DNA of 64,000 nucleotides from Hyphococcus sp. GTDB taxonomy: Bacteria; Pseudomonadota; Alphaproteobacteria; Caulobacterales; Parvularculaceae. The position numbers and the translations under genes are program-made. The stretch is taken from contig JAJFGF010000054.1 in NCBI GenBank assembly GCA_021776245.1, positions 310,001-374,000 on the forward strand, read 5' to 3'. A model generated the notes under the pieces. The model was not told the DNA's origin, did not search any database, and saw nothing but the letters and a program-made list of their open reading frames with translations. Each line of letters begins with the position of its first letter. The first letter of the stretch is position 1. Positions 7,703-28,040 of the stretch are shown here, in pieces.

Positions 7703-8302
7703 TCATTCGATGCGTCGTACACGGATTGTACGGCCCATTTCCTTCACCGTCATCAAATAATTGCCGAATGTCGAGCGTTTGACTTTTGCTGTGTAGAGCT
7801 TTTCTTTTTTGGAAAAATGCAGCGTTTTATTGTCGGAATTAAGCTGACGCCAGACCTGGCCATTTTCGAGGGTCACCGTGACTTTGCCATACGGATTGAC
7901 GCGAAACTCAGCAATTTTGACGGTAATTTGCTTTAATCGTTTTTCGTCCCGTTTTTTGATGTTTTCCGGCAAATATTCGCCGCCAAATTCTTCCGGGGTT
8001 TGGGCGACGAGCGGATCATAATCATCCTTGTCCTTGCGCTTGCCGAGGCCAAAAAATGTGCGTTCGTCGCGTTTCTTTTCTGCAATCGCCTCCTCGCGTA
8101 CGATGCGCGTCACCACCAGCGTCTCGGTCGCGGCGTCAAGGCAGGCCAACCGTTGCAAATCATCTGTTATGTCGCGGCAGGCGATCGCAGCGTCGACGGC
8201 TTCGGTTTCCGACGGCTGTGCGGCGGCGCCGGAAAGGCTGCTGCCACATATTGCCGCGAGGATCACAACTGGAACCCTTGCTGTCCGAAAAAACTCAATC
8301 AT
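7703..8302 (-). CDS. secreted protein of unknown function with a Cys-pair motif
   Basis: A 199-residue protein with a clear signal peptide (hydrophobic VPVVILAAICGSSLSG, cleavage likely after GAAAQ). Near the start of the mature chain, ACRDITDDLQRLACLD resembles the Cys-x-n-RLxC(Y/L)D motif of small periplasmic VasI/TagO-like domains. The middle is charged (KKRDERTFFGLGKRKDKDD), and the C-terminal half looks like a beta-rich OB or SH3-like fold (GKVTVTLENGQVWRQL). I do not recognise a specific family; no other secretion genes are nearby. It shares a strand with the downstream hydrolase. Confidence 0.65.
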   Translation of the reverse strand: MIEFFRTARVPVVILAAICGSSLSGAAAQPSETEAVDAAIACRDITDDLQRLACLDAATETLVVTRIVREEAIAEKKRDERTFFGLGKRKDKDDYDPLVAQTPEEFGGEYLPENIKKRDEKRLKQITVKIAEFRVNPYGKVTVTLENGQVWRQLNSDNKTLHFSKKEKLYTAKVKRSTFGNYLMTVKEMGRTIRVRRIE

Positions 8303-8410
8303 GATAACCCCTTAAGGCGCTGGCGCCTGTAACTTGCGCCAATTACACACGGTGCCTTCTGGCCCGTCAACATGATAGGCATTGGAAGGCATAGCAGGAA
8401 CATAATCCTC

Positions 8411-14519: not shown

Positions 14520-16535
14520 TCAACTGCCGGATTTGGAAACCAGCGCTCCTGTTTCCAGATCGACGCCGGCTTGCTCCAGTGAGGTTTTGAGCGGCGTCAG
14601 AAACTGTAAATAAGGCTTGGTCGAGTTTAAATGTTCCGCCGATGGGGGCTTTCGAACCTGGGCTGCGCTAAAAGTGATCACGGCGCGCTCTTCTTTGTAA
14701 TATTCAAGGCAATTTGCGTCCCACTTGAGGTCACAAAAATCAACCAAACGCCGTAGTTCTGTTTCAAAATTGACGACCAAATCCTCATACTGAATAAACG
14801 CCATTTTTGGGCCCAGTATTTTCGACCAGTGGGCGGCGATGCGCGAATGCTGGCCGTAATAATGGCCGATATAGGGAAGCGAATTTGCGAATTGCCAGGG
14901 ACGGGTGAAATTGCGCCTGAAGATCGAAAACCCGGTTTCCATGGGATTTCGTCTGATATGGATGATCCGCGCTTCGGGAAAAACGTGCCGGATAAGTCCA
15001 ACGACCAGAAAATTGTTTGGTTGTTTGTCGGTAATAAAGGGTGCGTTATTGACGCCATATTCGCGATATTGATCAAAATATTTCTGGCGAATGGCGTCAA
15101 TAATATCCTGCGGAATCTCGCCTCCATGCCAGCCGGCTTGGTCCGCCCATGCATCAAATTCCCGTTGGGCAAAAGGCATGACCGGCAGCTCGCCGGCGCA
15201 GGCTATATCGTTGTGCGCCGCCAGCGCGCTCTCAAGAAGCGTGGTGCCGGAACGCGGCATGCCGACGATAAAAATCGGCGCTGGCCGCCTTGCGCGCTCA
15301 GCGTCGCTCACCGGCGGGTCATAGTCAAATACGCGGATCAAGCGATCGACAGATTTTTCATGACTGGCCGGATCATAACGCGCATCGGCGTCAGTCTCCG
15401 CGAGCAACATTTTTAAACGGCACGCCTCCGCCCATGCGCCAAATGCCGCATCTGGAATTTTGCGCCGATGAAAGCCGTCGCCGGCGGTAAACCAACAAAG
15501 CGCCCGGTGCTCAAATTGCAAATCTTCGTGGCGCCCAAGCATTTGTAGACGCTCGATTTCGTCGTCGGAAAGGCGGCCGCCTGTGGCTGAAGCAAGCTGA
15601 CCATACGCCTCCACATTTTGCGGGTCTGCTTTGAGCGCTTCACGGGAAAGTTCCGCCGCTTCCTCGAAACGGCCAAGAAAAGTCATGAGCCGCGACAAGC
15701 CGGCCTTGGCTTCCGAATGATCGGGCTCAAGGTTTAGCGCGCGCAGAAAATAATCCTCAGCGCCGTCAAGGTCGCGCGCGCTTAACAAATACCGGCCCAG
15801 TGTTGCAAGATGATCGGCTTTTTGGGGCGTTGCGTCTGCCAATGGTTTGTAGGCTTCAACCGCGCGCGCAAAAAATCCCGGCTGCGCATAAGCGAAGGCG
15901 AGCGCAACGCGCGCTGCCTCTTCATCTGGCGATGCTTTTAGCCACGCTGATGCGGATTCAATAAGCCCGTCCCAGTTACTCGTTTGGCGCGCGATATGCG
16001 TGCGCAAGCGTAGCGCATGTGGATGACCCGGAGCGAATCTTTCAAAATTGTCGAGTGCGTCGCTGGCGTTCTGATAATCCCCAATCTCAAAGCAGGCGCC
16101 GGCCGCGCGTAACGCAAGCGCCGCGTGATCAGGGTTGATGGAAAGTGCTTTTGTCAGCGCTTCCGCAGCACGGGTAAAATTACCTTGTTTGCCGCTAAGA
16201 TCGCCAACTCGACCCCAGACCTCGAATTTATCCGGCGTATTTACTCCGGCTTGTTCCGCAGTTTGAAGCGCAGCGGCGAGATCGCCCTCGCATTCCTGCA
16301 GGATCGATTGATTGAGAAGAAACCGCCAGTTGCCTGGCGCAGTGTTAAGCGCTGACATAATCAATCGGCGCGCTTCGTCGAGTTGGCCAATTTCGGCAAG
16401 ACTGACCCCAAGCAAACTCATCGCGTCGGCATTGTCCGGATCCGCCGCCAGAAGTTGGCGGCACATTTCAATGGCCGCTTGGTCATCGCCGTTGAGGCGG
16501 GCGGCTGACGCTTGATCCAGTAGGCCGTTCGGCAT
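14520..16535 (-). CDS. TPR protein with C-terminal sulfotransferase domain
   Basis: A 671-residue protein. Residues 1-400 are TPR units (QAAIEMCRQLLAADPDNADAMSLLG and many repeats). Residues about 420-670 are a PAPS-dependent sulfotransferase: FIVGMPRSGTTLLE is the 5'-phosphosulfate loop, and HIRRNPMETGFSIFRRNF the 3'-phosphate region. The family is widespread in alphaproteobacteria beside TonB receptors; targets are mostly unknown and could be tyrosines, glycans or lipids. A ribosome site GAGGA precedes the start. It is convergent with the methyltransferase 52 bases away. The same TPR architecture occurs in the 2OG-oxygenase gene at 8411. Confidence 0.88.
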   Translation of the reverse strand: MPNGLLDQASAARLNGDDQAAIEMCRQLLAADPDNADAMSLLGVSLAEIGQLDEARRLIMSALNTAPGNWRFLLNQSILQECEGDLAAALQTAEQAGVNTPDKFEVWGRVGDLSGKQGNFTRAAEALTKALSINPDHAALALRAAGACFEIGDYQNASDALDNFERFAPGHPHALRLRTHIARQTSNWDGLIESASAWLKASPDEEAARVALAFAYAQPGFFARAVEAYKPLADATPQKADHLATLGRYLLSARDLDGAEDYFLRALNLEPDHSEAKAGLSRLMTFLGRFEEAAELSREALKADPQNVEAYGQLASATGGRLSDDEIERLQMLGRHEDLQFEHRALCWFTAGDGFHRRKIPDAAFGAWAEACRLKMLLAETDADARYDPASHEKSVDRLIRVFDYDPPVSDAERARRPAPIFIVGMPRSGTTLLESALAAHNDIACAGELPVMPFAQREFDAWADQAGWHGGEIPQDIIDAIRQKYFDQYREYGVNNAPFITDKQPNNFLVVGLIRHVFPEARIIHIRRNPMETGFSIFRRNFTRPWQFANSLPYIGHYYGQHSRIAAHWSKILGPKMAFIQYEDLVVNFETELRRLVDFCDLKWDANCLEYYKEERAVITFSAAQVRKPPSAEHLNSTKPYLQFLTPLKTSLEQAGVDLETGALVSKSGS

Positions 16536-17039
16536 GTTTGTTCCTCAAGCCTAAATGATAATGGCGTTCCAACGCCGCTATTTCGTAGCCCGCAGGAAGC
16601 CTACTAAAGCGTCTCGCGGCGGTCTGAACATGCATGCACATAGCTTATCGATCAGCAGCCCGTCCAGAACCCAGCGGCCGGTGCGGCGCCCAACGCTGAC
16701 CGCTTGGCGGCGTAAACAGGCATGGCGATCGGCTGGCGCCGGCTATTTGTGAATGCAGTCAATTTGCCAGCCTTTTTCAGTGATTGCCGTGGGCGGGGCG
16801 GCGTTAAAATTCCCTGGAAAAGAAACAGATGGTGTTTCATGCCGTCCAAAAGCGGACACCGAAGTCAGCCTATTGCCGGTATTCGCCATCGCCGAGAAAT
16901 TTAAAACCCGAATTAGCATCCTGTCTGAACAGTTAAAGGCTCAGCACTGGTTCTCAGGGAAATAGGTCTAATACGCTGAAATTGTTATTATTTTCATGAA
17001 GTTTGCGCGAACAGCAGAAGCGCGTGAAGAGAGATTGTA
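16536..17039. other. long intergenic stretch, nothing recognised
   Basis: About 500 bases between the sulfotransferase gene and the oxyR promoter contain only short open frames with no family resemblance, no clear ribosome sites, and no hairpin that I would call. A possible 70-residue frame at 16753-16965 has no support. The last 100 bases become A/T-rich towards oxyR. Confidence 0.5.
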
Positions 17040-17079
17040 TTGAATGTGGAGATGGTAAATCTATAATATATTGATTATA
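17040..17079 (+). promoter_or_regulatory. oxyR promoter with palindrome over the -10
   Basis: TTGAAT (17040-17045), a 16-base spacer and a perfect TATAAT (17062-17067) form a good sigma-70 promoter. The -10 is one arm of TATAAT-ATATTG-ATTATA (17062-17079), a perfect inverted repeat placed to occlude the promoter, as expected for LysR-type autoregulation. A ribosome site AAAGGAGG lies at 17086-17093. Confidence 0.55.
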
Positions 17080-17102
17080 TCGATTAAAGGAGGCCGCCTC
17101 AT

Positions 17103-18008
17103 ATGACCGTGCTGCCGACATTGCGTCAGCTACAATTCTTCCTGGCGTTGGTGCGCCGGGAGTCGTTTTCAAAGGCGGCCGAAGATAGTTTTGTTTCACA
17201 ATCGACGCTTTCCTCCGCCATCAAGGAGCTTGAAGCGCTTCTGCAAAAACAATTGGTGGATCGCTCAACGCGAAGTTTTGCATTGACGCCTGCCGGCGAG
17301 GATGTCGCGGCGCGCGCGACAACACTGATCGCATTGGCGGAAGATTTGGTCCTCGCGGTGACCGACCGGAGGCCGTTGGAAGGGGAGCTCCATCTCGGCG
17401 TGATTCCAACTATTTCGCCGTTCCTGTTGCCACGCGCCACAACAGCGCTGCACAAGTCTTATCCGCAACTTCAACTTTATATACGCGAAGATTTGACGCC
17501 AGCGATTGCTGACCGGCTAGCGGCGGGCCTTCTCGACGCTGCGCTAATGGCTTTTCCCTACGACATTCCCGGCATCGACATGATTGAAATCGCCAACGAT
17601 CCGTTCTGGTTTGTCTGTGCGCGCGATCACCCGTTTGCGCGCAAAATAACAGTCAAGAAAGAAGAGCTGAAAGAATGTGAGCTGCTTCTTTTGGAAGATG
17701 GTCATTGTCTGCGTGAGCATGCGATTGACGCGTGTGCGCTTGTCGATCGCCAGGCCGCGGCGTCATACAGCGGGACCAGTCTGTTCACGCTTACCCAGAT
17801 GGTGCGATTGGGGCTTGGCGCAACGTTGCTGCCGGAAATGGCTGTGCGCGAAGGGCTCGCGAAACATGCAGGTCTCGCCGCCGTGCCTTTTGCAGATCCA
17901 AAGCCCAATCGAAAAATTGGCATTGCCTGGCGGAAAGGATCCGGGCGCGGTGAAGAGGCCGCCGCCATCGCGCAGGTGCTTTCAAGTCTTTTCGATAAAC
18001 CGGCCTAG
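17103..18008 (+). CDS. oxyR: hydrogen-peroxide sensor, LysR-family regulator OxyR
   Basis: A 301-residue LysR protein. DNA-binding helix-turn-helix at residues 18-40 (SFSKAAEDSFVSQSTLSSAI) and the effector domain after 90. The diagnostic feature is LLLEDGHCLREHAIDAC, giving C202 and C211 with the nine-residue spacing of the redox pair in OxyR (C199/C208 in E. coli), which forms a disulfide on peroxide exposure. Its promoter has a palindrome over the -10, suggesting autoregulation. No catalase or alkyl hydroperoxide reductase gene is adjacent; the next gene is an AI-2E family protein on the other strand. Confidence 0.92.
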   Translation: MTVLPTLRQLQFFLALVRRESFSKAAEDSFVSQSTLSSAIKELEALLQKQLVDRSTRSFALTPAGEDVAARATTLIALAEDLVLAVTDRRPLEGELHLGVIPTISPFLLPRATTALHKSYPQLQLYIREDLTPAIADRLAAGLLDAALMAFPYDIPGIDMIEIANDPFWFVCARDHPFARKITVKKEELKECELLLLEDGHCLREHAIDACALVDRQAAASYSGTSLFTLTQMVRLGLGATLLPEMAVREGLAKHAGLAAVPFADPKPNRKIGIAWRKGSGRGEEAAAIAQVLSSLFDKPA

Positions 18009-18056
18009 GGCGTTTCCGAGATAAAGTGGTTCCCGGTTTATCGTCCGGAAACGCCC
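18008..18056 (+). repeat. REP/RIME-like palindromic element, copy 1
   Basis: Outer arms GGGCGTTTCCG (18008-18018) and CGGAAACGCCC (18046-18056) pair perfectly. Inside, GATAAA (18020-18025) pairs with TTTATC (18037-18042) around the 11-base loop GTGGTTCCCGG. Copies at 18070, 34014 and 41853 share the inner stem layout and an 11-base loop beginning GTG and ending GG. It resembles the intergenic palindromes of Rhizobiales. It starts on the last base of the oxyR stop and may also terminate or stabilise that transcript. Confidence 0.75.
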
Positions 18057-18069
18057 AAGATTCATACTT

Positions 18070-18120
18070 TAGCGCATTTCTTATCGAAAAACCGCGTCAC
18101 ACTTTTTCGGAAATGCGCTA
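18070..18120 (-). repeat. REP/RIME-like palindromic element, copy 2 (inverted)
   Basis: Outer arms TAGCGCATTTC (18070-18080) and GAAATGCGCTA (18110-18120) pair over 11 bp. The inner stem CGAAAAA/TTTTTCG (18085-18091, 18103-18109) encloses an 11-base loop that reads GTGTGACGCGG on the minus strand, matching the loop pattern of copy 1. The two copies lie head-to-head, 13 bases apart, in the gap between convergent oxyR and the AI-2E gene. Confidence 0.75.
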
Positions 18121-18126
18121 GAGAAA

Positions 18127-19248
18127 TCAGCCCCTTTCAAGCGGCGGATGTTTTATCTCGGCGATTTTTCCATTGTCGGACAGCATAATAGCGATCGGCC
18201 GCGTCGAGTGGAATTGCGTCAGGATGATCATCACGGTCACTGTAATCGGTACGCTGAGAAGAAGCCCGGCAAAACCCCACAACGAGCCCCAGACGCCCAG
18301 AGAAAACAAAATCACGAGCGGACTTAGATTTAGCGTGCGACCGATAATGCGCGGTTCAATGCCATTGCTCATCACCTGCTCGGCGCCCACGAGACTGACC
18401 AGCGCCAGGAGCGACATGCGAATGCCGCCGCCGTCTGGCTGCACCAGCGCCAACAAGACCGGCAGGGTGATGGCCGATACTGCGCCAAAGATCGGTATGT
18501 AATTTAAAACAAAGATCAAGAGCGCCCAAAATCCGGCGAATTGAATGCCGATCACCAGCATGATCCCATAGCTGATCGTTGCAGTGACGAGGTTCGATAC
18601 TGTTTTTACGGTAATATATTGACGCACCATCACGCCGATATCGCCTATCGTTTCTTTAATAACCCGTCGCCCATGCCGGTCAGCGCCCAATAGGCTGATC
18701 TTGTTGAAGAGACGACCACGCTCGATCAGTATAAAGACGAGATACAAAAACACAGTAATGAACGTCATAAAGTTAGATGTCAGCCCGCGCAGGCTTCCGG
18801 CGGCCTGTGACAAAAGCGGGCGAATAAGATTGATCGCCGCTACTTGAATCTGTTCGACGCCGCCGATCAGTTCAGGCGGCAGGAAATCGATCGTTCGGAC
18901 AAATGCGAGCCCTTCACTGATGACTTCACGCAAGCTCGCCTCATAACTTGGCCATTCTTTGAGCAGGGTTTCGACATTTGACTTAATAATTTCCACAAAG
19001 ATCACGACACCGGCGCCAATCAGCGCAAACGCAACCATGTAGCCGAGCCAGTTGGGCAGAAACTTGCCGATAAACGGGGTCCGGCGGACGTTCTCTTTCA
19101 GGGTGAATATCAGGAAACACAAAAACCCTGCGACCACCAGAGGGATCAGGACGCCCCGTCCTACATAGGCGATCAATCCGATCAGGACCGTGATCGCGAG
19201 GCCATAAAATGTCCTGGCGACGCCCTTGCCGTCTTCAGTCTCCGACAT
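18127..19248 (-). CDS. AI-2E family transporter (PerM/TqsA-like membrane protein)
   Basis: A 373-residue inner-membrane protein with about seven to eight hydrophobic helices arranged as in the PF01594 family: two near the N-terminus, a charged soluble stretch (SNVETLLKEWPSYEASLREV), then a C-terminal membrane bundle with NYIPIFGAVSA and EPRIIGRTLNLSPLVILFSL, the most conserved family segments. Members export signals or sodium ions, or act as permeases of unknown substrate; the name does not prove AI-2 transport. A strong GGAGG ribosome site precedes the ATG. It is monocistronic and divergent from pabB. Confidence 0.88.
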   Translation of the reverse strand: MSETEDGKGVARTFYGLAITVLIGLIAYVGRGVLIPLVVAGFLCFLIFTLKENVRRTPFIGKFLPNWLGYMVAFALIGAGVVIFVEIIKSNVETLLKEWPSYEASLREVISEGLAFVRTIDFLPPELIGGVEQIQVAAINLIRPLLSQAAGSLRGLTSNFMTFITVFLYLVFILIERGRLFNKISLLGADRHGRRVIKETIGDIGVMVRQYITVKTVSNLVTATISYGIMLVIGIQFAGFWALLIFVLNYIPIFGAVSAITLPVLLALVQPDGGGIRMSLLALVSLVGAEQVMSNGIEPRIIGRTLNLSPLVILFSLGVWGSLWGFAGLLLSVPITVTVMIILTQFHSTRPIAIMLSDNGKIAEIKHPPLERG

Positions 19249-19360
19249 AGTTTCCTCCGGTGCGTGCGTAGAATGCCGTTACGGCGATTTGCCTGCTTCT
19301 GCCAGCGTCGATCAGGCCCCGGTGCTTTTCTTCGTTCCCACCCGGCGCTAGGTCTAGCGC

Positions 19361-20716
19361 ATGATTGTTTGGGACATCGACTGGCGAAGCCCTTATGAGG
19401 CATTCGCGCCACTGGCTGGCGAGCCTCATGCGCATCTCCTGCATGGGGGCGATCAATCCAGCGCTGCGGAATGGTCGATCATCGTCGCATTTCCCGACAG
19501 CCTTGCCGGCGGCGTCGATGGGGGCGATCGGAGCGATCCATTTCACCGATTACAGGAATGCATCAGCGAACGATCGATTAATGTGGCCAGGCGAGACGAA
19601 GATTTGCCGTTCACATCGGGGCTTGTGGGTTTTATGGGGTATGAGGCGGCGCGTCACACAGAGGCGGCGCTGGATATGCCAATGTCGCCATTTGCGCTGC
19701 CTGATATGGCGTTTGGCGCTTATGACGCCGCCGCTTTGTTTTCACGACGAACAAAGTGCGCGTTTATAACGGGCCGTAATGAAAACGCATGCCGGCGCCT
19801 GCGTGAGGCGCTGGGCAAGCATGTACCGACGCCAGACGCATCCGCTGTGTTTAGCGCGCTAACTTCCAATTTTACACCGCTGCGTTATGAGGCAGGCGTC
19901 CGCAGCGTCATTGAGGACATCCTCAATGGGAATTATTATCAGGCGAACATCGCTCACCAGATCAGAACATTCGCTGACCGTGAAATTGACGCTTTCGGAT
20001 TGTTTCGCCGTCTTGCAGGCGCCAGCGATGCGTTCTTTGGCGCGCTCCTGCAATTGCCGGAAGGGGCGATTCTTTCCAATTCACCGGAGCGATTCTTCTG
20101 CGTTTCCTCCAATACGCCATGCGAGCGTCACATTGTAGCCGAGCCGGTCAAAGGAACCCGCCCTCGCGGTGCGACGCCAGCGCTCGATCGGGCGCTGGCG
20201 AATGAATTGCTGACCGATCGGAAAGATCGCGCTGAAAATATCATGATCGCTGATCTTATGCGTAATGATTTATCCAGGATTTGCAGCGACGGATCTATTC
20301 ATGAAGAAGATATCTGCGCGTTGTTGAGCCTTGTAAATGTTCATCACCTTGTATCGCGCATCAGCGGGGAATTGAGACCCGGCGTGTCATTCGCGGAGAT
20401 TTTTGAAGCACTATTTCCGTGCGGTTCAGTCACCGGCGCGCCCAAGATTGAGGCGATGAACGCCATTGCAAAAATTGAAGAAATCGGGCGCGGCCCTTAT
20501 TGTGGCGCAATCGGGTATGTTGATGATCGGGGCAGCGCAGAGTTTTCCGTTGCCATCAGAACGATGATTGTCGCGCAAGATAAGCGCTCTCTTACTATTC
20601 CCGTAGGCGGCGGGATTACATTGCGATCGGACCCTCATAAAGAGTACCACGAGACCATTACCAAAGCATCCGCAGCATTGGAAGCGATCGGAAAATCGCC
20701 GCAGGAGTTGTTGTGA
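19361..20716 (+). CDS. pabB: aminodeoxychorismate synthase component I
   Basis: A 451-residue chorismate-binding enzyme. The active-site motif EPVKGTRPRG has Lys (K264), the residue that marks PabB and forms a covalent intermediate, where anthranilate synthase has Ala. GSVTGAPKIEAMNAI and the C-terminal IPVGGGITLRSDPHKEYHET complete the family pattern. It converts chorismate and ammonia from PabA into 4-amino-4-deoxychorismate, the route to p-aminobenzoate and folate. It is the first of four genes that overlap by four bases each. The ribosome site is weak (GGTCT upstream). Confidence 0.92.
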   Translation: MIVWDIDWRSPYEAFAPLAGEPHAHLLHGGDQSSAAEWSIIVAFPDSLAGGVDGGDRSDPFHRLQECISERSINVARRDEDLPFTSGLVGFMGYEAARHTEAALDMPMSPFALPDMAFGAYDAAALFSRRTKCAFITGRNENACRRLREALGKHVPTPDASAVFSALTSNFTPLRYEAGVRSVIEDILNGNYYQANIAHQIRTFADREIDAFGLFRRLAGASDAFFGALLQLPEGAILSNSPERFFCVSSNTPCERHIVAEPVKGTRPRGATPALDRALANELLTDRKDRAENIMIADLMRNDLSRICSDGSIHEEDICALLSLVNVHHLVSRISGELRPGVSFAEIFEALFPCGSVTGAPKIEAMNAIAKIEEIGRGPYCGAIGYVDDRGSAEFSVAIRTMIVAQDKRSLTIPVGGGITLRSDPHKEYHETITKASAALEAIGKSPQELL

Positions 20717-21294
20717 TTTTGATCGTCGACAATTACGATTCTTTTGTCCACAATCTCGCCCGCTATGTCCGCGAATGCGGCCATGAAGCTGTCATTGTTC
20801 GTAATGATGTGGTCACGGTTGGCGACTGCCTGTCTCTGGCGCCTGCAGGCGTAATCATTTCGCCTGGCCCTGGCCGCCCGGTCAATGCTGGCCTGTCAAC
20901 AGCGCTGATCTGCGATTTGCCGCGTGACACGCCGCTGCTTGGCGTTTGTCTCGGACATCAATGCCTCATTGAAGCATTTGGCGGCGAAACCCGCCGCGCC
21001 GTCAGGCCGCTGCATGGTGAAGCAAGCGCTATTCGACATTGTAAAACGGGAATTTTTCGCGATATTGCGTCGCCGACGCCTGGCGGGCGCTATCATTCAT
21101 TGATCGCAACGCTGGGCGCTAACTCGCCGCTTGAGGAAACCGCATGGAGCGAAGAGGCGGAGGTGATGGGGGTCGCTCATCACATCCGCCCCTGGTTTGG
21201 CGTGCAATTCCACCCGGAATCCTTGCTGACACCAGAAGGCCGAAAGATAGTTATGAATTTCCTTAGCTATTGCAATAAAGAAGGCAGCCCATGA
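20713..21294 (+). CDS. pabA: aminodeoxychorismate/anthranilate synthase component II (glutamine amidotransferase)
   Basis: A 193-residue class I glutamine amidotransferase. The catalytic triad is visible: C79 in LGVCLGHQCL, and the His-Glu pair in VQFHPESLL. ISPGPGRPVNAG is the oxyanion segment. It supplies ammonia to PabB. The start codon is GTG at 20713, inside the end of pabB (GTGA overlap), giving tight coupling of the two subunits. The PabB partner has the PabB-type Lys, so aminodeoxychorismate is the more likely product of the pair than anthranilate. Confidence 0.92.
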   Translation: MILIVDNYDSFVHNLARYVRECGHEAVIVRNDVVTVGDCLSLAPAGVIISPGPGRPVNAGLSTALICDLPRDTPLLGVCLGHQCLIEAFGGETRRAVRPLHGEASAIRHCKTGIFRDIASPTPGGRYHSLIATLGANSPLEETAWSEEAEVMGVAHHIRPWFGVQFHPESLLTPEGRKIVMNFLSYCNKEGSP

Positions 21295-22160
21295 TTTTCT
21301 GGCTCAACGGTGAATTCTCGACAAAGCCTCATGCAATAGATATCGCCGATCGCGGATTTTTACTCGGCGACGGTGTTTTCGAGACCATCCTCGTTGTGAA
21401 GGGTATTCCAGCGTTTTTCGACGCGCACCTCAATCGTTTGCGCGCTTCAATGACGGCGCTCCGTTTGCACGCTGAAATTGATGAATCATTCCTCGGCGTT
21501 GTTTTGGAGTTGGTTCGGCGAAACAGCCTTGATCAGGGGATGGCGGCTGTCCGCCTTACTCTGTCGCGCGGAACCGGTGCGCGAGGTTTATTAATTTCCG
21601 CCAATACGCCGCCGACACCCACTCTGCTCGCGACCGTCTCAAAATTTCACGCTTCGAGCGATCCGTCGCCGCTGAGGCTTGCCGTGAGCAGCTATACGCG
21701 CAGCGAGGCAAGCCTGTCATCCCGCCATAAAACGCTAAACTATATTGACAATGTCATGGCGCGGGACGAAGCCGCCGCTAAGAAATGTGATGATGCGGTA
21801 ATGTTGAATAATGCGGGCCGCGTCGCCTGCGTCTCGGCCGGTAATATTTTTGAGATTGTCAGCGACAGCGCGGCGGTAACGCCGGCGCTGGGGGAGGGCG
21901 CTTTGGGTGGTATTGTGCGCGGCATTTTGCTTGGCGGCGCGGGATCAGGCATGGTGATCGAAGAAGGCGCGATTGAGCGCAATGCACTTTCGAGCGGCGG
22001 GCTCTTCATCACTAATAGCCTTCTCGGCGTCAGGCCCGCCTTTATAATGGGCGCCAACGCATTGCTGCCGGCGTTGGCGAGTAAGTCTTTGCGCATCCTG
22101 CAATCGTGGTATGAAGATGTCTTGAATGAAGATCTCAAGCGGCGGGCGGATCAAATTTGA
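21291..22160 (+). CDS. pabC: aminotransferase class IV, probable aminodeoxychorismate lyase
   Basis: A 289-residue fold-type IV PLP enzyme. K147 in SSRHKTLNYIDN is the PLP-binding lysine. FLLGDGVFETILV near the N-terminus is the family start pattern, and the C-terminal GVRPAF region ends the small domain. In a pabBA operon the reaction is release of pyruvate from aminodeoxychorismate to give p-aminobenzoate. D-amino-acid or branched-chain transaminase activity cannot be excluded by sequence. It overlaps pabA by ATGA and the next gene by TTGA. Confidence 0.88.
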   Translation: MIFWLNGEFSTKPHAIDIADRGFLLGDGVFETILVVKGIPAFFDAHLNRLRASMTALRLHAEIDESFLGVVLELVRRNSLDQGMAAVRLTLSRGTGARGLLISANTPPTPTLLATVSKFHASSDPSPLRLAVSSYTRSEASLSSRHKTLNYIDNVMARDEAAAKKCDDAVMLNNAGRVACVSAGNIFEIVSDSAAVTPALGEGALGGIVRGILLGGAGSGMVIEEGAIERNALSSGGLFITNSLLGVRPAFIMGANALLPALASKSLRILQSWYEDVLNEDLKRRADQI

Positions 22161-23323
22161 AATCCTTTCTTATAACAGAAACTCAAATTTCAAGTGTCAT
22201 CGGCGGCGCTGCGGCCGACGAGTTATCGCGGCGTTTCAATCGCCATTTCGATTTCGTGACGATCGCTTCCTGGTCAGAGGATAGTTTGCTAGGCGCCGGC
22301 GGCATTGCCATGAGCAAAGAAGAAAAGGATGCGTGCGCGCGCCGGGCTGCGGAGACTTTTGGCCTTGACGGCGATTTTTTGACTAATCATCAGGCGCAAC
22401 GGATTTCGGATTGGGCGCGTGAAATTTTTAAAGTCATATCAGATCGCCTCATCAATTTTTCATTTAAGTCAGCTGCACGCGATGATCGCGGCGCTGAGCA
22501 CGCGCACGCCGCCGCGGAAATTTATCAGGATGCTGGCGCTGCAGCGAGTCTGCTCTATGGTCGACGCCGTCTGCTGTCATTTGTCGCGCCCCACAGTCTG
22601 CTTGGTTTTGAACTGACTGTGCTAACGCCAAACCTGCTCAATATTGACGCTGTTGATGCGCGCAGCATGACGCCGGAGGTTTTATCGAACAGTCTTCTTT
22701 TCGGCGATGTCCTGGTCGCGACGCCGACATTGTGGCGGTATATGATGCGGGAAAACCTCAAGGCGCCGGACAATACAATGGCTGTTTCGTTCGGTGAGCC
22801 AATGACCGGCGATCTCGCTGCGGAGATGCGAAAAAGCGGTTTTGGCGTTCTGCGGGAGCTTTATGGGTCGACGGAGACCGGGTTGATCGGGTGGCGTGAT
22901 GCGCCAAGCGAGCCTTTTGTTCTGTTCGATCATTGGCGGCGTGATGATGATGATTTGGTGCGTATTGCGCCGGATCTCAGCACAAAGCGAACGCCGGCAA
23001 TGGACGTTCTTGACTGGACTGCAGCACGGAGTTTTTGCCTTGGCGGACGGCGTGACGGCGCCGCGCAGATCGGCGCCGTCAATGTGTTTCCGGATGAGGT
23101 TGCAAAGATGCTCCGGCGTCATCCGAAGATTGCGGATTGCAAGATTGCCGTCGGCCGCAGCGGCGATGGCGTCAACCGGTTGATCGCGCATCTCGTTTTA
23201 AAAAAAGAAGCGCCGCCAAATGAACAGACAGCGAGGGAAATCGACAGTTGGTGCAGGTTAAATCTTCGCCAGCAAGAAAGACCGAGGATATATAATTTTG
23301 AGGCAGTCCTGCCGGAGATATAA
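22157..23323 (+). CDS. shortened adenylate-forming enzyme (AMP-binding family), function unknown
   Basis: About 388 residues, starting at TTG inside the pabC stop. Recognisable adenylation motifs are YGSTETGLIGWRD (A5, the substrate and ATP site) and GGRRDGAAQIGAVNVFPDEV (A8, the hinge region). The usual P-loop A3 (SSGSTGxPK) is not visible in the N-terminal half, and the protein ends LPEI just where the A10 catalytic Lys would follow. Related enzymes are 450-550 residues. It may act on p-aminobenzoate or 4-hydroxybenzoate made by the operon, or transfer an acyl group without full adenylation; this is inference. It is not a random truncation, because the frame is intact and ends at a terminator. 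Confidence 0.6.
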   Translation: MKSFLITETQISSVIGGAAADELSRRFNRHFDFVTIASWSEDSLLGAGGIAMSKEEKDACARRAAETFGLDGDFLTNHQAQRISDWAREIFKVISDRLINFSFKSAARDDRGAEHAHAAAEIYQDAGAAASLLYGRRRLLSFVAPHSLLGFELTVLTPNLLNIDAVDARSMTPEVLSNSLLFGDVLVATPTLWRYMMRENLKAPDNTMAVSFGEPMTGDLAAEMRKSGFGVLRELYGSTETGLIGWRDAPSEPFVLFDHWRRDDDDLVRIAPDLSTKRTPAMDVLDWTAARSFCLGGRRDGAAQIGAVNVFPDEVAKMLRRHPKIADCKIAVGRSGDGVNRLIAHLVLKKEAPPNEQTAREIDSWCRLNLRQQERPRIYNFEAVLPEI

Positions 23324-23351
23324 AAAGACCCCGCGCTTGACGGGGCCTTTT
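23323..23351. terminator. bidirectional terminator between pab operon and convergent gene
   Basis: AAAAGACCCCG (23323-23333) and CGGGGCCTTTT (23341-23351) form a stem with one A/C mismatch around a seven-base loop, with A/T runs on both sides, so it can stop transcription from both directions. It begins on the stop of the adenylate-forming gene. Confidence 0.85.
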
Positions 23352-23376
23352 ATACGAACGAGTTGTCGGTTCTCTT

Positions 23377-23841
23377 TTATTCGTTTTCTTCATCACCTGC
23401 GGCTGAGGCCGCGCCCGCTGCCTGAGTGAATTTGTTCAGAACCTGATCTGAAACGCCTTGGAAGGCAGCCGGGTCGTCGCCGACTGTGATCGTCGTTTCG
23501 CAATTTGTTGTGCAGTTATAGGTTGTACGCGCTACGCCGCGATGAACCGTAAGCATATCGGTGCTGGGCGAGCGAACCCGTACAACAAGATTTTCGGTCG
23601 TTTCGCCATCTTCATTGAAGATATAAATATTTGTAAGGCCAGGCGCCTTGCCGAACATCAAAAGATGCTGACTGTCCTCAACCGTGACATCGGCAATTGA
23701 CGGATTGCCGATCACAATCTTCTGCGCCGGGTTTTCCAGCTTGTAAGGCCGGACTTGATCCATGGTCAGCCATATCTGACCAGCCGAAGCGCTTTGCGCC
23801 ATGATAAAGAAAACCGCGATCGCGGAGAAAGTCGTACGCAT
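23377..23841 (-). CDS. pilus assembly protein N-terminal domain protein (CpaC-N/RcpA-N like)
   Basis: About 154 residues from the ATG at 23841 (an earlier ATG at 23871 would give ten more). A signal peptide (TTFSAIAVFFIMAQSASA) is followed by QIWLTMDQVRPYKLENPAQKIVIGNPSIADVTVED, which matches the N-terminal domain of type II/III pilus secretins (PF13629) and the same domain in CpaC downstream. It stops before any secretin barrel, so it is a free-standing periplasmic domain, perhaps a partner of CpaC. It carries two extra Cys (TTYNCTTNCE) that may form a disulfide. It lies divergent from the Crp-like regulator. Confidence 0.75.
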   Translation of the reverse strand: MRTTFSAIAVFFIMAQSASAGQIWLTMDQVRPYKLENPAQKIVIGNPSIADVTVEDSQHLLMFGKAPGLTNIYIFNEDGETTENLVVRVRSPSTDMLTVHRGVARTTYNCTTNCETTITVGDDPAAFQGVSDQVLNKFTQAAGAASAAGDEENE

Positions 23842-24003
23842 TGGACGTTCCTCTGAATTTTCGATGTTCACACTAATGCCGATGAGTCAATGAAGGTTTA
23901 AGGAAGCGCTGCGCATTAACGCAAAGCACGGATAATTAAACGCCAAATTTTACCGGGCTTTAAGCGGTAAGTGATACCCAGCTATCCGCTGCCGGAGAAC
24001 GCC

Positions 24004-24732
24004 ATGTCTGCCACGCCTGTTAAAAATGCTGCGCCAGCGGATGATTTCGCCGAAGCGCTTTCAACCATGCCGCCATTTCAAGACCTGTCGCCAGCCGTAC
24101 GCGGCAGCCTGTATGAAAATGCCGACAAGCGCCAATACAGCGCCGGGCAAACGGTCTATTCCCTGGGCCAGTATGACGGCGGCGAGTTTTTCATTGTTAT
24201 GTCGGGCCGGTTGCGGGTTACCCTGATTGACGGCGATACGGGCGCCATGATGATAGAGGAGTTCGGTCCAAAATCGATTTTTGGCCTTGAGTTCGCGCTC
24301 ATTGAAAGCGGGTCTGATCTTTGCCAAAAACTGGCCGTTACCGCGGAAGCGGACGTAGATCTTATCGCTGTTGAAGCCGATCCCTTTAGAACGCTGGCCA
24401 ACGGTCGACCGTCTCTGATGCGCAATATCGCCAACTATTTCGCAAACAGTTTATCCGCGATGCGCTTTAAGTCGCCGGCGGTGGAACAGCCTTCCGAGAA
24501 ACAGGTGTTTGCCGCTTTGTTAGACTTTGTCGAGCGCGACGAAGTCACAGGGCAGTGGCGTATTCCGAAAATGCCAAAACATCGCGAATTGGCTCACCGC
24601 GCGGGCGTTGATGAGGCGATCGCAGCTGAGGCTGTGGCGACGCTTATTCAGGATAAAATCGCCCTGCGCGACTATCCGGGCTTGATTGTCATTAATATGA
24701 ACGACTTGGAAAAGCTGGCAAGTATATGGTAA
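24004..24732 (+). CDS. Crp/Fnr-family transcriptional regulator
   Basis: About 242 residues from the ATG at 24004, which has GGAG ten bases upstream; an upstream in-frame start at 23971 is less likely. Residues 25-145 form a cyclic-nucleotide-binding beta-roll (QYSAGQTVYSLGQYDGGEFFIVMSGRL), and the C-terminus is a winged helix-turn-helix (KMPKHRELAHRAGVDEAIAAEAV). No Fe-S cysteines, so it is not an Fnr. It sits directly upstream of flp and the cpa genes, so pilus regulation is a fair guess, but no target site was identified. The stop codon lies within the terminator hairpin. Confidence 0.85.
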   Translation: MSATPVKNAAPADDFAEALSTMPPFQDLSPAVRGSLYENADKRQYSAGQTVYSLGQYDGGEFFIVMSGRLRVTLIDGDTGAMMIEEFGPKSIFGLEFALIESGSDLCQKLAVTAEADVDLIAVEADPFRTLANGRPSLMRNIANYFANSLSAMRFKSPAVEQPSEKQVFAALLDFVERDEVTGQWRIPKMPKHRELAHRAGVDEAIAAEAVATLIQDKIALRDYPGLIVINMNDLEKLASIW

Positions 24733-24749
24733 ACAGGCGTTTACCATAT
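24724..24749 (+). terminator. hairpin terminator overlapping the Crp-like stop codon
   Basis: ATATGGTAAAC (24724-24734) and GTTTACCATAT (24739-24749) form a perfect 11-bp stem with AGGC loop. The TAA stop (24730-24732) is within the left arm. The trailing ATTTG is only partly U-rich, so terminator function is likely rather than certain. It isolates flp from the regulator. Confidence 0.65.
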
Positions 24750-24873
24750 ATTTGTATACGGACTAAAAACTTACCTATCGTTCACGTTTTATTTACAGAT
24801 GAACGCCATGATGCAACGAGTTGAGGAGAAGTTTCTTCAGCGGTGCAAGTGAAGAGTAAGCAGGAGTCGACAA

Positions 24874-25041
24874 ATGAAAGCTCTAATTGAACGATTTAAA
24901 TCAGACGAAGAAGGCGCAACGGCCATCGAATATGGCTTGATCGCCGCCCTTATCGCTGTTGCGATTATCGCGGGCGTTCGCGCTGTCGGTACGACGCTCA
25001 GCGGTACGTTCGACACCATTGACAAAGGCCTTAAAGAATAG
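24874..25041 (+). CDS. flp: Flp-family type IVb pilin
   Basis: A 55-residue prepilin. A short charged leader (ERFKSDEEG) is followed by the pilin signature ATAIEYGLIAALIAVAII. Cleavage by CpaA is expected after Gly14, and E19 and Y20 are the conserved pair of Flp pilins. A long hydrophobic helix and a short tail follow, as in other 50-70 residue Flp subunits. The ribosome site GGAG lies at 24863-24866. The gene is bounded by hairpins on both sides, so it can be expressed separately and in excess of the assembly genes, as in other Tad loci. Confidence 0.92.
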   Translation: MKALIERFKSDEEGATAIEYGLIAALIAVAIIAGVRAVGTTLSGTFDTIDKGLKE

Positions 25042-25076
25042 GCTTTTATTCAGCGTAAGCTTGAATTCGATACGGG

Positions 25077-25103
25077 AAAGGAGACCGAAAGGTCTCCTTT
25101 TTT
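25077..25103 (+). terminator. Rho-independent terminator after flp
   Basis: AAAGGAGACC (25077-25086) and GGTCTCCTTT (25091-25100) form a perfect stem capped by GAAA and followed by six T (25098-25103). It lies 36 bases after the pilin stop and separates flp from the cpa assembly operon. Confidence 0.9.
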
Positions 25104-25111
25104 GTTTATGT

Positions 25112-25126
25112 CTAACGGATCGTTAA
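25112..25126. promoter_or_regulatory. near-consensus CtrA-type box before cpaA
   Basis: CTAACGGATCGTTAA differs from TTAA-N7-TTAA by one base in the first half. It lies 49 to 63 bases upstream of the cpaA start, right where a CtrA activator would sit for the cpa operon. In Caulobacter, CtrA controls pilus genes, which supports the reading; here the match is by pattern and place only. Confidence 0.45.
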
Positions 25127-25174
25127 GGGCCGCCGTCTTACTCTCTCCCTCGTTTGCTGAGTGGAGAACGCCGC

Positions 25175-25681
25175 GTGATTGCATATCTGATCTTATCCGT
25201 ACTTCCCGCCGCATTGCTGATGGCCGCGGCAAACGACGTTTACGAATTTAAGATACCGAACTGGATTTCCATTGTTCTGATTGCGGCCTACCCGGTCGCT
25301 GGTCTGGCTGTGGGCGCCGCGCCCAACATCATACTTGAAGGGTTTTTGATTGGCGCAGCGGCGTTGGTTTTTGGTTTTGCCATGTTTGCTGGAAAATTCG
25401 TCGGCGGCGGCGATGCAAAGCTGTTTGCCGCGACGGCGCCTTGGGTCGGGCTTGGCGGGCTTGGGCTGTTTTTGTTTAATACTGCAATAGCCGGATTAGT
25501 TTTAGCCATTGTCATGACAATGTTTCGCCGGTCGCCCTTATTGCCAGTTTACGCACATGCGCCCTGGCTTATTCGGCTGCATGAACGCAAGAGCGATTTG
25601 CCTTACGCCGTTGCGATTGCATCAGGCGCACTTCTTAGCTTTTCGCAAACGCCATTCTTCCAATTGGTCTTTGGCGGTTAA
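25175..25681 (+). CDS. cpaA: prepilin peptidase CpaA/TadV
   Basis: About 168 residues with the start taken as GTG at 25175, which has GGAG upstream at proper spacing; a TTG at 25154 would add seven residues. The two catalytic Asp of this A24 aspartyl peptidase are in AAANDVYEFKIPNW and GKFVGGGDAKLF. Five to six transmembrane helices fill the rest. It removes the leader from Flp pilin in the inner membrane. It begins the cpa assembly operon. Confidence 0.9.
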   Translation: MIAYLILSVLPAALLMAAANDVYEFKIPNWISIVLIAAYPVAGLAVGAAPNIILEGFLIGAAALVFGFAMFAGKFVGGGDAKLFAATAPWVGLGGLGLFLFNTAIAGLVLAIVMTMFRRSPLLPVYAHAPWLIRLHERKSDLPYAVAIASGALLSFSQTPFFQLVFGG

Positions 25682-25700
25682 CAAAGTCGGTTAACAGAGT
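25675..25700. repeat. tandem direct repeat at the end of cpaA
   Basis: CGGTTAACAAAGT (25675-25687) and CGGTTAACAGAGT (25688-25700) are adjacent 13-base copies with one mismatch, each containing GTTAAC. The TTAA half-sites are 13 bases apart, two more than a CtrA box, so it is not a standard CtrA site. It lies before cpaB and could bind a different factor. Confidence 0.35.
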
Positions 25701-25774
25701 TTTGAGGAGTTTCGAGCACGATAGAGGCTGCGGTTTTTACGTCGCGCCGATAGTAAGAGTCAGGTAGGTTCAAG

Positions 25775-26518
25775 ATGAATACAAGCCGTATGATAATCCT
25801 GGGTGTCGCGTTAGTGGCTGGCGTCGGCGCATTTTTTCTTGTGCAGGCAAATACCGCAACTGACATCGCGGAACGCACAGTTGAACCCATAAGGGAACAA
25901 ACTGTTCGTGTTCTCATTTCGTCGCACGATATTCAGCGTGGCGAGCGCATTACGCTTGAGGATACAAACTGGATTTCCTGGCCCAAGAAAGCGGTTCAGC
26001 CGAGCTTTATTACCGATGAAAATCCAGAGGCGCGCGACGAGTTGACGGAAGCCGTTGCGCGCTCGCTGATTGTCGCCGGCGAGCCAATTGTTAATGCGAA
26101 ACTTGTTAAAGCGGATTCTGGCGGCTTGATGGCCGCAATTATCGCTCCGGGTTATCGCGCCGTAACTCTACGTGTGACGCCAGAAACTTCTTCAGGCGGC
26201 TTTATTCTGCCGGGTGATGAGGTTGACGTCATGCTCACTACTGACGGGCGTGGCGCGAACCGGACACGGCTATTATTTCAGAGTGTCCGCGTTCTTGCGG
26301 TAAATGCGATCTATTCGGAGAACTCGGAAGCGGCAAATATTGCTGGATCAAATGTTACAATTGAGCTTGCTCCGGGCGATGCGGAATCCTTCATGACCGC
26401 CCGTTCCAGTGGCGCGCTAAGCCTGGTCCTGCGAAGCATTTTTAAGCCAGAGGGTGATGTCCAGGCAGACATCACACGTCCTTCAGGCGTCACGGTGGTC
26501 AGATATGGCCGGTCTTAG
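25775..26518 (+). CDS. cpaB: Flp pilus assembly protein CpaB/RcpC
   Basis: A 247-residue periplasmic protein anchored by an N-terminal hydrophobic segment (MIILGVALVAGVGAFFLVQ). A SAF-like domain follows (VRVLISSHDIQRGERITLED, near residues 44-63), then a central beta domain with GYRAVTLRVTPETSSGGFILPGDEVDVMLT. CpaB is thought to gate or stabilise the secretin and may bind peptidoglycan through SAF. It is followed 25 bases later by cpaC. The length is slightly short against many CpaB proteins of 260-300 residues. Confidence 0.9.
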   Translation: MNTSRMIILGVALVAGVGAFFLVQANTATDIAERTVEPIREQTVRVLISSHDIQRGERITLEDTNWISWPKKAVQPSFITDENPEARDELTEAVARSLIVAGEPIVNAKLVKADSGGLMAAIIAPGYRAVTLRVTPETSSGGFILPGDEVDVMLTTDGRGANRTRLLFQSVRVLAVNAIYSENSEAANIAGSNVTIELAPGDAESFMTARSSGALSLVLRSIFKPEGDVQADITRPSGVTVVRYGRS

Positions 26519-26543
26519 TTTGAAATTCGATCAGGGGTTTGAG

Positions 26544-28040
26544 ATGACACAACCAGCCAACGCCATCAGGACTGCCGGCGCCTTGACCGGAAATCTCCTG
26601 GTCGCGGCGTGCATTGGCGCACTTGCGCTATCGGTTTCCACATCACCAGCGCTCGCGCAACGCGGATCGCAACCGGTTAGAATTGATACGGGCGGCGACA
26701 GCGCAGTCTCGAAGAGCATTGTTTTGCCTTTGAACAAGGCTGCGATTGTAGAGTTGCCCCATGCCGCCGCTGATGTGCTGGTGTCCCAGCCAACAGTCGT
26801 TGATGCTGTCGTCCGTTCGCCGCGTCGCGTTTACTTGCTCGGCTTGCAAGTGGGTCAAACAAACGCGTTTTTCTTTGATGCGCAGGGCCGGCAGATTTTG
26901 AATCTTGAAATTCGTGTTGAGCGCGACGTTGATGCGTTGAGCGCTCTAATGCGCCGAGCCATGCCTGGCAGTCGCATAGAAGTCGAGGCCGTAAACAACA
27001 ACATCCTTCTGCGGGGGGCAGTTCAATCGCCAGTCGAAGCAGCCAATGCAACAGAATTGGCGGGACGATTCATTGGCGACCCCGAGGGCGTTGTAAATAT
27101 GTTGTCTGTACGCGAACGCGAGCAGGTCATGCTCAAGGTTCGAATTGTCGAAATGCAACGTCAGATGATAAAACAGCTTGGCGTTTCTACAAGCGGCACT
27201 GTTCAATTGAGTAATTTTGCTGTTGCACTCGCTACTGGCGGGTTTGCAAATGGCGGCGCCGTCGTCGATGCAGCGAACACCACCGTACCCACTGCATTTA
27301 ACCGCAATCCAATTGGCGACATATCCGAGCTTGATGCGCAGTTTCAAGCGTTGGAAACGAACGGCTTGATCCGGATACTTGCAGAGCCGAACCTCACCGC
27401 CGTTTCAGGCGAGTCTGCAAAGTTCCTTGCCGGCGGCGAGTTTCCCGTCCCGGTCGGTCAGGATAATGGCGTTATTTCGATCGAGTTTAAAGAGTTTGGC
27501 GTCGGGCTTGGGTTTTCGCCTCTCGTGCTGAGTAAAGGACGGATCAATTTGAAGATCTCGACCGAAGTCAGTGAAATAACCAACGACAATGCATTCTTTG
27601 CGCCGGGCATCACGACGGTCGATGGCAATGGAAATTTGGTTACGACAGCGGGATTATCGATACCGGGTCTTGCTGTGCGGCGCGCCGACACGGTTGTCGA
27701 GCTGCCGAGCGGCGGCAGCCTCGTAATGGCGGGCCTGTTACAAGAAGACATGCGCCAGACAATCGAGGGCGTGCCGGGGATGAAAGACGTGCCGGTTCTT
27801 GGCCAGTTGTTTCGCAGTCGCGATTACACAAATAGCGAAACAGAATTGGTGATTATCGTCACGCCATATCTCGTTTCTCCAACGCATGAGTCAAACCTTC
27901 TCGATCCTGCTGAGGGTTTCGCGCCGGCAAGCGATCTCGATACGATCTTGATGGGTAAATTATTTAGCACCTACGGCCTAGCAGGCGCCGGCGTCAGAGA
28001 AGCGTCGCTGCAAGGTCCTATGGGTTTCATCCTGGATTAA
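26544..28040 (+). CDS. cpaC: Tad pilus outer-membrane secretin CpaC/RcpA
   Basis: About 498 residues from the ATG at 26544 (AGGGG upstream). After a signal peptide comes the pilus-assembly N-terminal domain (KAAIVELPHAAADVLVSQP), then a BON-like domain near residues 150-205, then the secretin core with VMLKVRIVEMQRQMIKQLG and the C-terminal secretin signature VVELPSGGSLVMAGLL. It forms the outer-membrane channel for the Flp fibre. CpaD, the next gene, usually acts as its pilotin-like lipoprotein. Confidence 0.92.
   Translation: MTQPANAIRTAGALTGNLLVAACIGALALSVSTSPALAQRGSQPVRIDTGGDSAVSKSIVLPLNKAAIVELPHAAADVLVSQPTVVDAVVRSPRRVYLLGLQVGQTNAFFFDAQGRQILNLEIRVERDVDALSALMRRAMPGSRIEVEAVNNNILLRGAVQSPVEAANATELAGRFIGDPEGVVNMLSVREREQVMLKVRIVEMQRQMIKQLGVSTSGTVQLSNFAVALATGGFANGGAVVDAANTTVPTAFNRNPIGDISELDAQFQALETNGLIRILAEPNLTAVSGESAKFLAGGEFPVPVGQDNGVISIEFKEFGVGLGFSPLVLSKGRINLKISTEVSEITNDNAFFAPGITTVDGNGNLVTTAGLSIPGLAVRRADTVVELPSGGSLVMAGLLQEDMRQTIEGVPGMKDVPVLGQLFRSRDYTNSETELVIIVTPYLVSPTHESNLLDPAEGFAPASDLDTILMGKLFSTYGLAGAGVREASLQGPMGFILD

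Follow-up and report, generated by a model that had tools for sequence, protein, structure and literature searches.

A conserved predicted pseudo carrier-ligase encoded directly behind pabC in the Parvularculaceae, with a possible role in p-aminobenzoate binding

The 64,000-nucleotide stretch of Hyphococcus sp. DNA analyzed here (the window; contig JAJFGF010000054.1, positions 310,001 to 374,000 of the forward strand) contains a pabB-pabA-pabC operon that ends in a fourth gene, which encodes a homologue of adenylate-forming enzymes (AFE). The locus thus raises the question of what such a protein might do behind the genes for p-aminobenzoate (PABA). We found that AFE is conserved and under selection, has none of the canonical catalytic parts of its ligase relatives, lies tight behind pabC, and is kept even in genomes without local PABA genes. 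From this we infer that AFE has an aromatic acid or the ester of one as its ligand and, as a further step, that this ligand is PABA. Our best explanation, which we hold tentatively and at somewhat less than an even chance, is that AFE is a pseudo-ligase that binds PABA on the PABA/folate branch. The four genes, numbered from the first letter of the window, are as follows:

19361..20716, + strand: pabB, aminodeoxychorismate synthase component I, 451 amino acids (aa), EPVKGT motif (open reading frame [ORF] and profile scans)
20713..21294, + strand: pabA, glutamine amidotransferase, 193 aa, GTG start, 4-bp overlap (ORF and profile scans)
21291..22160, + strand: pabC, aminodeoxychorismate lyase-like class-IV aminotransferase, 289 aa (ORF and profile scans)
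22157..23323, + strand: AFE, the fourth gene, putative pseudo carrier-ligase of the ANL superfamily, 388 aa, TTG start (ORF, profile, model, and alignment)

We aligned 54 homologues of AFE (the window sequence, those of 52 named loci, and L212; L and G numbers designate our loci and genomes), 51 of which are full length, together with 13 ligase relatives, eight from genomes (L214 and L217-L223) and five from plasmid records (L233-L237). The fragments L148, L151, and L176 were left out of the motif counts and the tree. Placed in this alignment, the window gene has these features:

22157..22450 (codons 1-98), + strand: predicted acyl-carrier-protein-like domain without the phosphopantetheine serine (model and alignment)
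22469..22495 (codons 105-113), + strand: place of the A3 P-loop, which is TSGSTGxPK in the relatives and SAARDDRGA here (alignment)
22862..22876 (codons 236-240), + strand: retained A5 motif YGSTE (alignment)
23045..23092 (codons 297-312), + strand: retained A8 region GRRDGAAQIGAVNVFP (alignment)
23276..23323, + strand: C-terminus ERPRIYNFEAVLPEI-stop, short of the A10 GK of the relatives (DNA and alignment)

A loose A3 pattern was present in the right region in none of the 54 AFE sequences, compared with 12/13 relatives; the thirteenth (L235) keeps its glycines, and both A3 glycines occur in all 13 relatives, whereas the A3 stretch of the AFE homologues is varied. Similarly, a lysine in the A10 column was found in 0/51 full-length AFE homologues vs. 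12/13 relatives, with 47 of the 51 ending before the column is reached. L138 and L155 do have a GK among their last 40 residues, which in L155 forms the very end of the protein, several residues before the A10 column. The carrier-serine column holds the Ser of a DSL motif in 13/13 relatives, while the AFE homologues are variable at this position (K in the window), with Ser in 1/51 (L153) and DSL in 0/51. The letters DSL can be found in the first 110 residues of four AFE homologues including that of the window, always at other positions. The adenine-loop residue is Glu in 51/51 AFE homologues vs. Gly or Ala in the relatives. Much else has been kept, namely the A4 His (48/51), the A5 Tyr and Glu (50/51 each), and the A7 Asp and the A8 Arg and Asp (51/51), and H117, R136-R138, W193, R194, and E214 are among the residues that are invariant in 23 aligned homologues. 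Judging from the alignment, part of the adenylate/acyl pocket is under continued constraint. The best family model for AFE is TIGR02372, the 4-coumarate-CoA ligase of photoactive yellow protein (PYP) activation, with 155.4 bits vs. a cutoff of 334.7, and its score against Pfam AMP-binding (22.9) is likewise below the gathering score of 29.9. According to a review of aryl-CoA ligases, single A3 substitutions cost from 4-fold to all activity, A7/A8 residues touch the ribose, and the A10 lysine acts on the alpha-phosphate during adenylation (PMC8388817). Given the absence of A3 and A10 from AFE and the losses that this review reports for A3, canonical adenylation by AFE appears very unlikely, and we are highly confident that AFE is no longer an ATP-dependent ligase. 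Sequencing error and recent decay were both ruled out as the source of these losses, since all 51 full-length homologues share them and the gene is under purifying selection.

The predicted structure is that of an ANL protein with an additional domain. A full-length model of AFE (m6afa67451e77), which was built from a 23-row alignment of AFE homologues, has a predicted local distance difference test score (pLDDT) of 90.5 and ANL folds as its top matches, many of which are aryl-CoA ligases; Foldseek matched it to a benzoate-CoA ligase at 2.5e-16, and the best VIA Z of 21.0 was to a malonyl-CoA ligase. In this model, AFE has the two-domain ANL fold. The 98-residue N-terminus was modeled alone, with six relatives in its alignment, and reached a pLDDT of 93.5. 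Its best VIA Z was 10.2 against carriers (root-mean-square deviation 2.2 over 79 residues), a caveat being that a Z near 10 can also come from helical bundles. Among the 50 VIA rows listed, carrier proteins are named in 35; the remaining 15 are chains of 75-98 residues that belong to polyketide synthases, to an efflux complex, to respiratory complex I, or to a mitoribosome, and these we take to be the carrier subunits of those complexes. Foldseek also placed carrier proteins at the top for this domain, with a best E of 0.25 and a probability of 0.97-0.98 for the first three, none being at E 0.001, and with an E limit of 5, Pfam PP-binding matched neither the window AFE nor any of seven relatives. 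In the alignment, AFE residue 54, which starts the second long helix in the model, falls at the DSL serine of the relatives, and it is for this reason that we assign the N-terminus to the carriers, predicting an acyl-carrier-like fold for its 98 residues. Overall, AFE looks like a carrier-ligase fusion in which the chemistry has been lost from both halves. The first-pass annotation had noted that the window has no carrier-protein gene, which must be amended for the predicted carrier-like first 98 residues of AFE and yet holds to the extent that the serine is missing there.

We next consider how widely AFE is distributed. It was present in 61/62 genomes of the Parvularculaceae, whose members are marine bacteria, and in all 42 of those of good quality, the single miss being an 89% complete draft, whereas 24 genomes from other families of the order had only weak, mostly C-terminal matches or none. 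In a draw of 398 genomes from the phylum searched with the 23-row alignment, 15 genomes matched and only two family members scored high; among the other matches, G729 (L217, 156 bits) is a relative that has a P-loop, and the 12 that scored 48-64 bits are known by score alone. AFE was not found outside of the Parvularculaceae in the genomes searched. A scan of named genomes yielded the 52 named loci, and every title that gives a family or genus is of the Parvularculaceae (the genera being Marinicaulis, Parvularcula, and Aquisalinus), with some titles stating just Alphaproteobacteria bacterium. The AFE gene is also under purifying selection. The ratio of nonsynonymous to synonymous substitution (dN/dS, NG86) was 0.06-0.17 in 9/12 pairs and not computable in three, with dS values of 1.3-3.1 being near saturation; the pairs took in four of the five lineages without local pab genes described below (L212 of G458 was left out). 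Among the 34 loci with all four genes, the window included, mean pairwise identity was 0.56 for AFE, 0.50 for PabB, 0.60 for PabA, and 0.42 for PabC, and AFE identity was higher than that of PabC in 561/561 locus pairs, higher than that of PabB in 511, and higher than that of PabA in 148.

The position of AFE behind pabC is similarly constant. As first described from the sequence, the four genes at 19361-23323 overlap by four bases, and the ORF coordinates confirm that each neighboring pair shares 4 bp, the pabC/AFE overlap reading TTGA at 22157-22160. The TTG start of AFE is backed by an ATG, GTG, or TTG at the homologous place in 48/52 named loci; in the other four, the matches of L148, L151, and L176 begin part-way at contig starts and that of L165 begins at an internal residue. 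Measured to this homologous start (extrapolated for L165), pabC lies directly before AFE in 43 of the 47 named loci with readable upstream DNA, with a gap of -4 bp in 30, -1 bp in 4, and 0 to +13 bp in 9. The remaining named loci comprise four without an intact pab gene at this place and five at a contig edge, one of which (L172) shows part of pabC. At least one genome from each of the nine Parvularculaceae genera has pabC directly preceding AFE (part of pabC for L040), and we conclude that the arrangement is more than chance. A species-limited operon was ruled out, as the set occurs across the family, and with it the proviso in the first-pass annotation that the four genes might be together by chance in this one species. 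Two loci depart from the usual layout. In G443 (L210 and L211), a rearrangement splits the operon between pabA and pabC, and pabC remains with AFE, while in the draft genome G027 (L133, 5233-6567) pabB is in two pieces in different frames, by error or decay.

Several lineages have AFE without its usual operon partners. In G012, G013, G020, G457, and G458, pabBAC is gone from the locus and AFE is kept beside the CpaC-N gene, which in G458 is the only recognizable side of the locus. A quick tree gives five separate changes to a pab-less locus, a count from a tree without bootstrap that carries a long-branch warning for L214 and that cannot by itself separate loss from gain; loss is instead inferred from stumps and conserved flanks. 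The clearest stumps are in G012 (L131, 3939-4458), where deletions have left short remnants of pabB, of pabA, and of the end of pabC upstream of an intact AFE, with the GTGA overlap retained. G005 and G447, whose pabB misses fall at contig ends, and G468 (89% complete, both genes missing) were not counted as losses, and L166 and L172 (contig ends) were also left out of the loss count. Another source of PABA was evident in most of these lineages. G020 and G457 each have a gene over the cutoff for CADD (TIGR04305), an alternative PABA synthase, and CADD-type enzymes are reported to form PABA by cleaving one of their own tyrosines (PMC11965152). CADD probably supplies PABA in these two genomes. 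The CADD genes themselves (L230, ~8107-8739, and L231, ~7902-8531) are each just downstream of what is presumably an SdhA-like gene, in genomes of different genera. A profile search did not find CADD in G000, G013, G458, or G012. Away from the AFE locus, G013 encodes a dissimilar PabB that exceeds the TIGR00553 cutoff and shares its frame with part of a PabA, and G458 has another PabB with PIKGT and with PabA and PabC matches beside it. A folP-like pterin-binding gene, called from the shorter of two pterin-binding matches, was kept in all four pab-less genomes examined for it (G012, G013, G020, and G440, the last via L163 and with a contig for this locus as long as that of G457; G458 is outside of this set). 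Since AFE outlives pabBAC in five lineages, its role as a mere part of a PabABC complex was ruled out.

How might these observations fit together? AFE would share a common ancestor with the proteins that combine a carrier domain and an AMP-ligase and are encoded beside PYP genes. It would still have the fold and some of the adenylate/acyl pocket, without the loop for the ATP phosphates, the lysine of catalysis, or the serine of the carrier, and from its motifs it should be unable to form an acyl adenylate or to load a carrier by the canonical route. The gene overlap suggests that AFE is probably made together with PabC through translational coupling. Its likeliest job would be to bind PABA, or the aryl ester or adenylate of PABA, so as to buffer it, hand it over, or sense it within the PABA/folate branch. 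Such a role would explain why AFE stays when PABA comes from another enzyme or, presumably, from uptake. PABA is proposed as the ligand because the ancestral operon is that of pabBAC and because another PABA route exists in four of the five pab-less lineages. A more elaborate version starts from a self-loading carrier-ligase that became, at the base of the family, a PABA-binding regulator or chaperone that is kept whatever enzyme makes PABA, in effect a pseudo-assembly-line protein monitoring or handing over the folate precursor; this we regard as speculative and unlikely.

A number of observations weigh against PABA binding. The CpaC-N gene is present in 48/52 named loci, making the synteny with the tad pilus genes as constant as that with the pab genes. 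None of the pab-less genomes has a PABA gene beside AFE, and in G012, which is 96% complete, neither pabB nor CADD was found. The link between AFE and PABA rests on the ancestral operon and the continued need for PABA, and folP is expected in most bacteria. Moreover, the altered adenine loop may mean that nucleotide binding by AFE is gone as well. In the strongest of the competing explanations, AFE is a passenger of the operon with a job unrelated to PABA or folate, requiring only the operon promoter and being a core gene of the family for some other reason, for example as a partner of the pilus genes or in other acyl metabolism. Its retention in five lineages without local pab genes, its presence in nearly every family genome (61/62), and the CpaC-N neighbor would all suit a passenger. 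However, the pabC junction of -4 to +13 bp recurs across the family in 43 loci, including the four that have no CpaC-N match (L157, L158, L164, and L170), and most of the pab-less lineages (four of five) have another PABA route. On balance, we hold a passenger role to be somewhat less likely than PABA binding. An ATP-free chemistry, in which AFE transfers or hydrolyzes the acyl group of an aryl-AMP or aryl-CoA made by other enzymes, fares worse and seems to us improbable. This half-reaction needs neither the P-loop nor the A10 lysine, and it would be in keeping with the largely retained A4 His, A5, A7, and A8 and with the invariant residues from H117 to E214 listed above, but no adenylating enzyme was seen linked to AFE as a partner, the serine of the carrier domain is gone, and the adenine loop is altered. 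The last candidate follows the first-pass annotation and makes AFE an active ligase, with PABA or a related acid being adenylated and then passed to CoA, an amine, or a carrier. It can claim the ANL fold and a 4-coumarate ligase as its best family model, but is contradicted by the A3 P-loop, A10 lysine, and DSL carrier motif, all missing in 51/51 homologues, as well as by the family scores (155 vs. 334.7 for TIGR02372, 22.9 vs. 29.9 for Pfam AMP-binding), and was rejected as highly improbable. The small dedicated pathway envisaged along with it is also unsupported, with no PYP gene in the genome and no pathway partner recognized among the ORFs of 15000-28000, which were judged by eye apart from the family-scanned pab and AFE genes.

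The remainder of the locus agrees with its reading as a pab operon. A lysine in the PIKGT-type motif marks an aminodeoxychorismate synthase, and the window PabB has both this lysine, in EPVKGT, and linked PabA and PabC, which upholds the initial assignment; the other chorismate-binding enzyme of the same genome (4.14 Mb, 76 contigs) has PIAGT. The pabB models are the best for PabB, although the top of those listed, TIGR00553, scores 304 bits against a cutoff of 328.4. PabA passes TIGR00566 (170 vs. a cutoff of 121), and PabC is best matched by class-IV aminotransferase and aminodeoxychorismate lyase models, every score being below its cutoff. Upstream of the operon are LysR and PerM-type genes, and downstream, at 23377-28040, are a convergent CpaC-N-like gene, a CRP-like regulator, and CpaA/B/C tad pilus genes (all named by eye from their translations). 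The pilus-side neighborhood also follows AFE in most named loci, and the LysR gene, the PerM-type gene, and the tad pilus genes are its recurring neighbors. Compared with the plasmid collection, the operon DNA gave one 49-base match, to E. coli pabB.

An ANL pseudoenzyme that nearly every genome of a family keeps, dead carrier domain included, would be a clean case of an activating enzyme that has been recast, and with the PABA genes replaced or lost in five lineages while AFE stays in place, its link to PABA can be tested directly. If AFE does bind PABA, it would be a component of the folate branch without a name in the family libraries searched. In the open-licence literature, no ANL pseudoenzyme and nothing on a carrier domain in PYP ligases was evident by title among the matches listed, no paper paired Parvularcula with adenylate-forming, the one that paired it with aminobenzoate was on a metabolic network, and the matches for aminodeoxychorismate with pseudoenzyme were unrelated by title.

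As for known systems, none of the families named in the libraries searched works like AFE, which is an ANL protein by fold and nearest to the PYP ligases by profile. CADD (TIGR04305) is an unrelated protein whose gene is not beside AFE. The benzoate- and 4-chlorobenzoate-CoA ligases share the AFE fold (VIA-align Z 19.7-20.3 over 338-352 residues), and aryl-CoA ligases also share its ribose-binding A7/A8 residues, but these enzymes have the A3 and A10 that AFE is missing. The PYP-linked p-coumaryl ligases (TIGR02372 type), among them the named comparators pcl of Indioceanicola profundi (L233) and an AMP-binding protein of Caballeronia sp. SBC1 (L234), resemble AFE in length, in the combination of a carrier-like N-terminus with an ANL ligase, and in A4, A5, A7, and A8. 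AFE is 25-34% identical to eight relatives over the best tblastn stretch, and five relatives adjoin pyp (L218, L220, and L223 by profile, the two named ones by annotation). AFE as a PYP ligase was itself ruled out, since the PYP gene (TIGR02373) had no match in the window's own genome and the TIGR02372 score is under the cutoff. That cutoff is also missed by the relatives L218 (beside PYP, 323) and L221 (301), and was passed by none of 385 genomes of the class. Within the family, G464 has a second ligase-like homologue (L214, 5311-6492) with the carrier DSL and the P-loop and without the A10 lysine, located ~3.7 kb downstream of the gas-vesicle gene gvpK. A 2025 survey of pyp operons reports 42 instances of pCL in them, and its main text does not contain the word "carrier" (PMC12826048). 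In our alignment, the PYP-linked p-coumarate ligases and their relatives (L214, L217-L223, and L233-L237) have the N-terminal DSL serine in 13/13, aligned with the acyl-carrier-like fold, hinting that they load a carrier domain of their own. Such a built-in carrier domain in the PYP ligases, which the relatives suggest, could be tested for and would bear on the loading of the PYP chromophore. Against these 13 relatives, all with the carrier Ser and the P-loop glycines and 12 with the A10 Lys, AFE stands apart in having none of the three and in its place with pabBAC.

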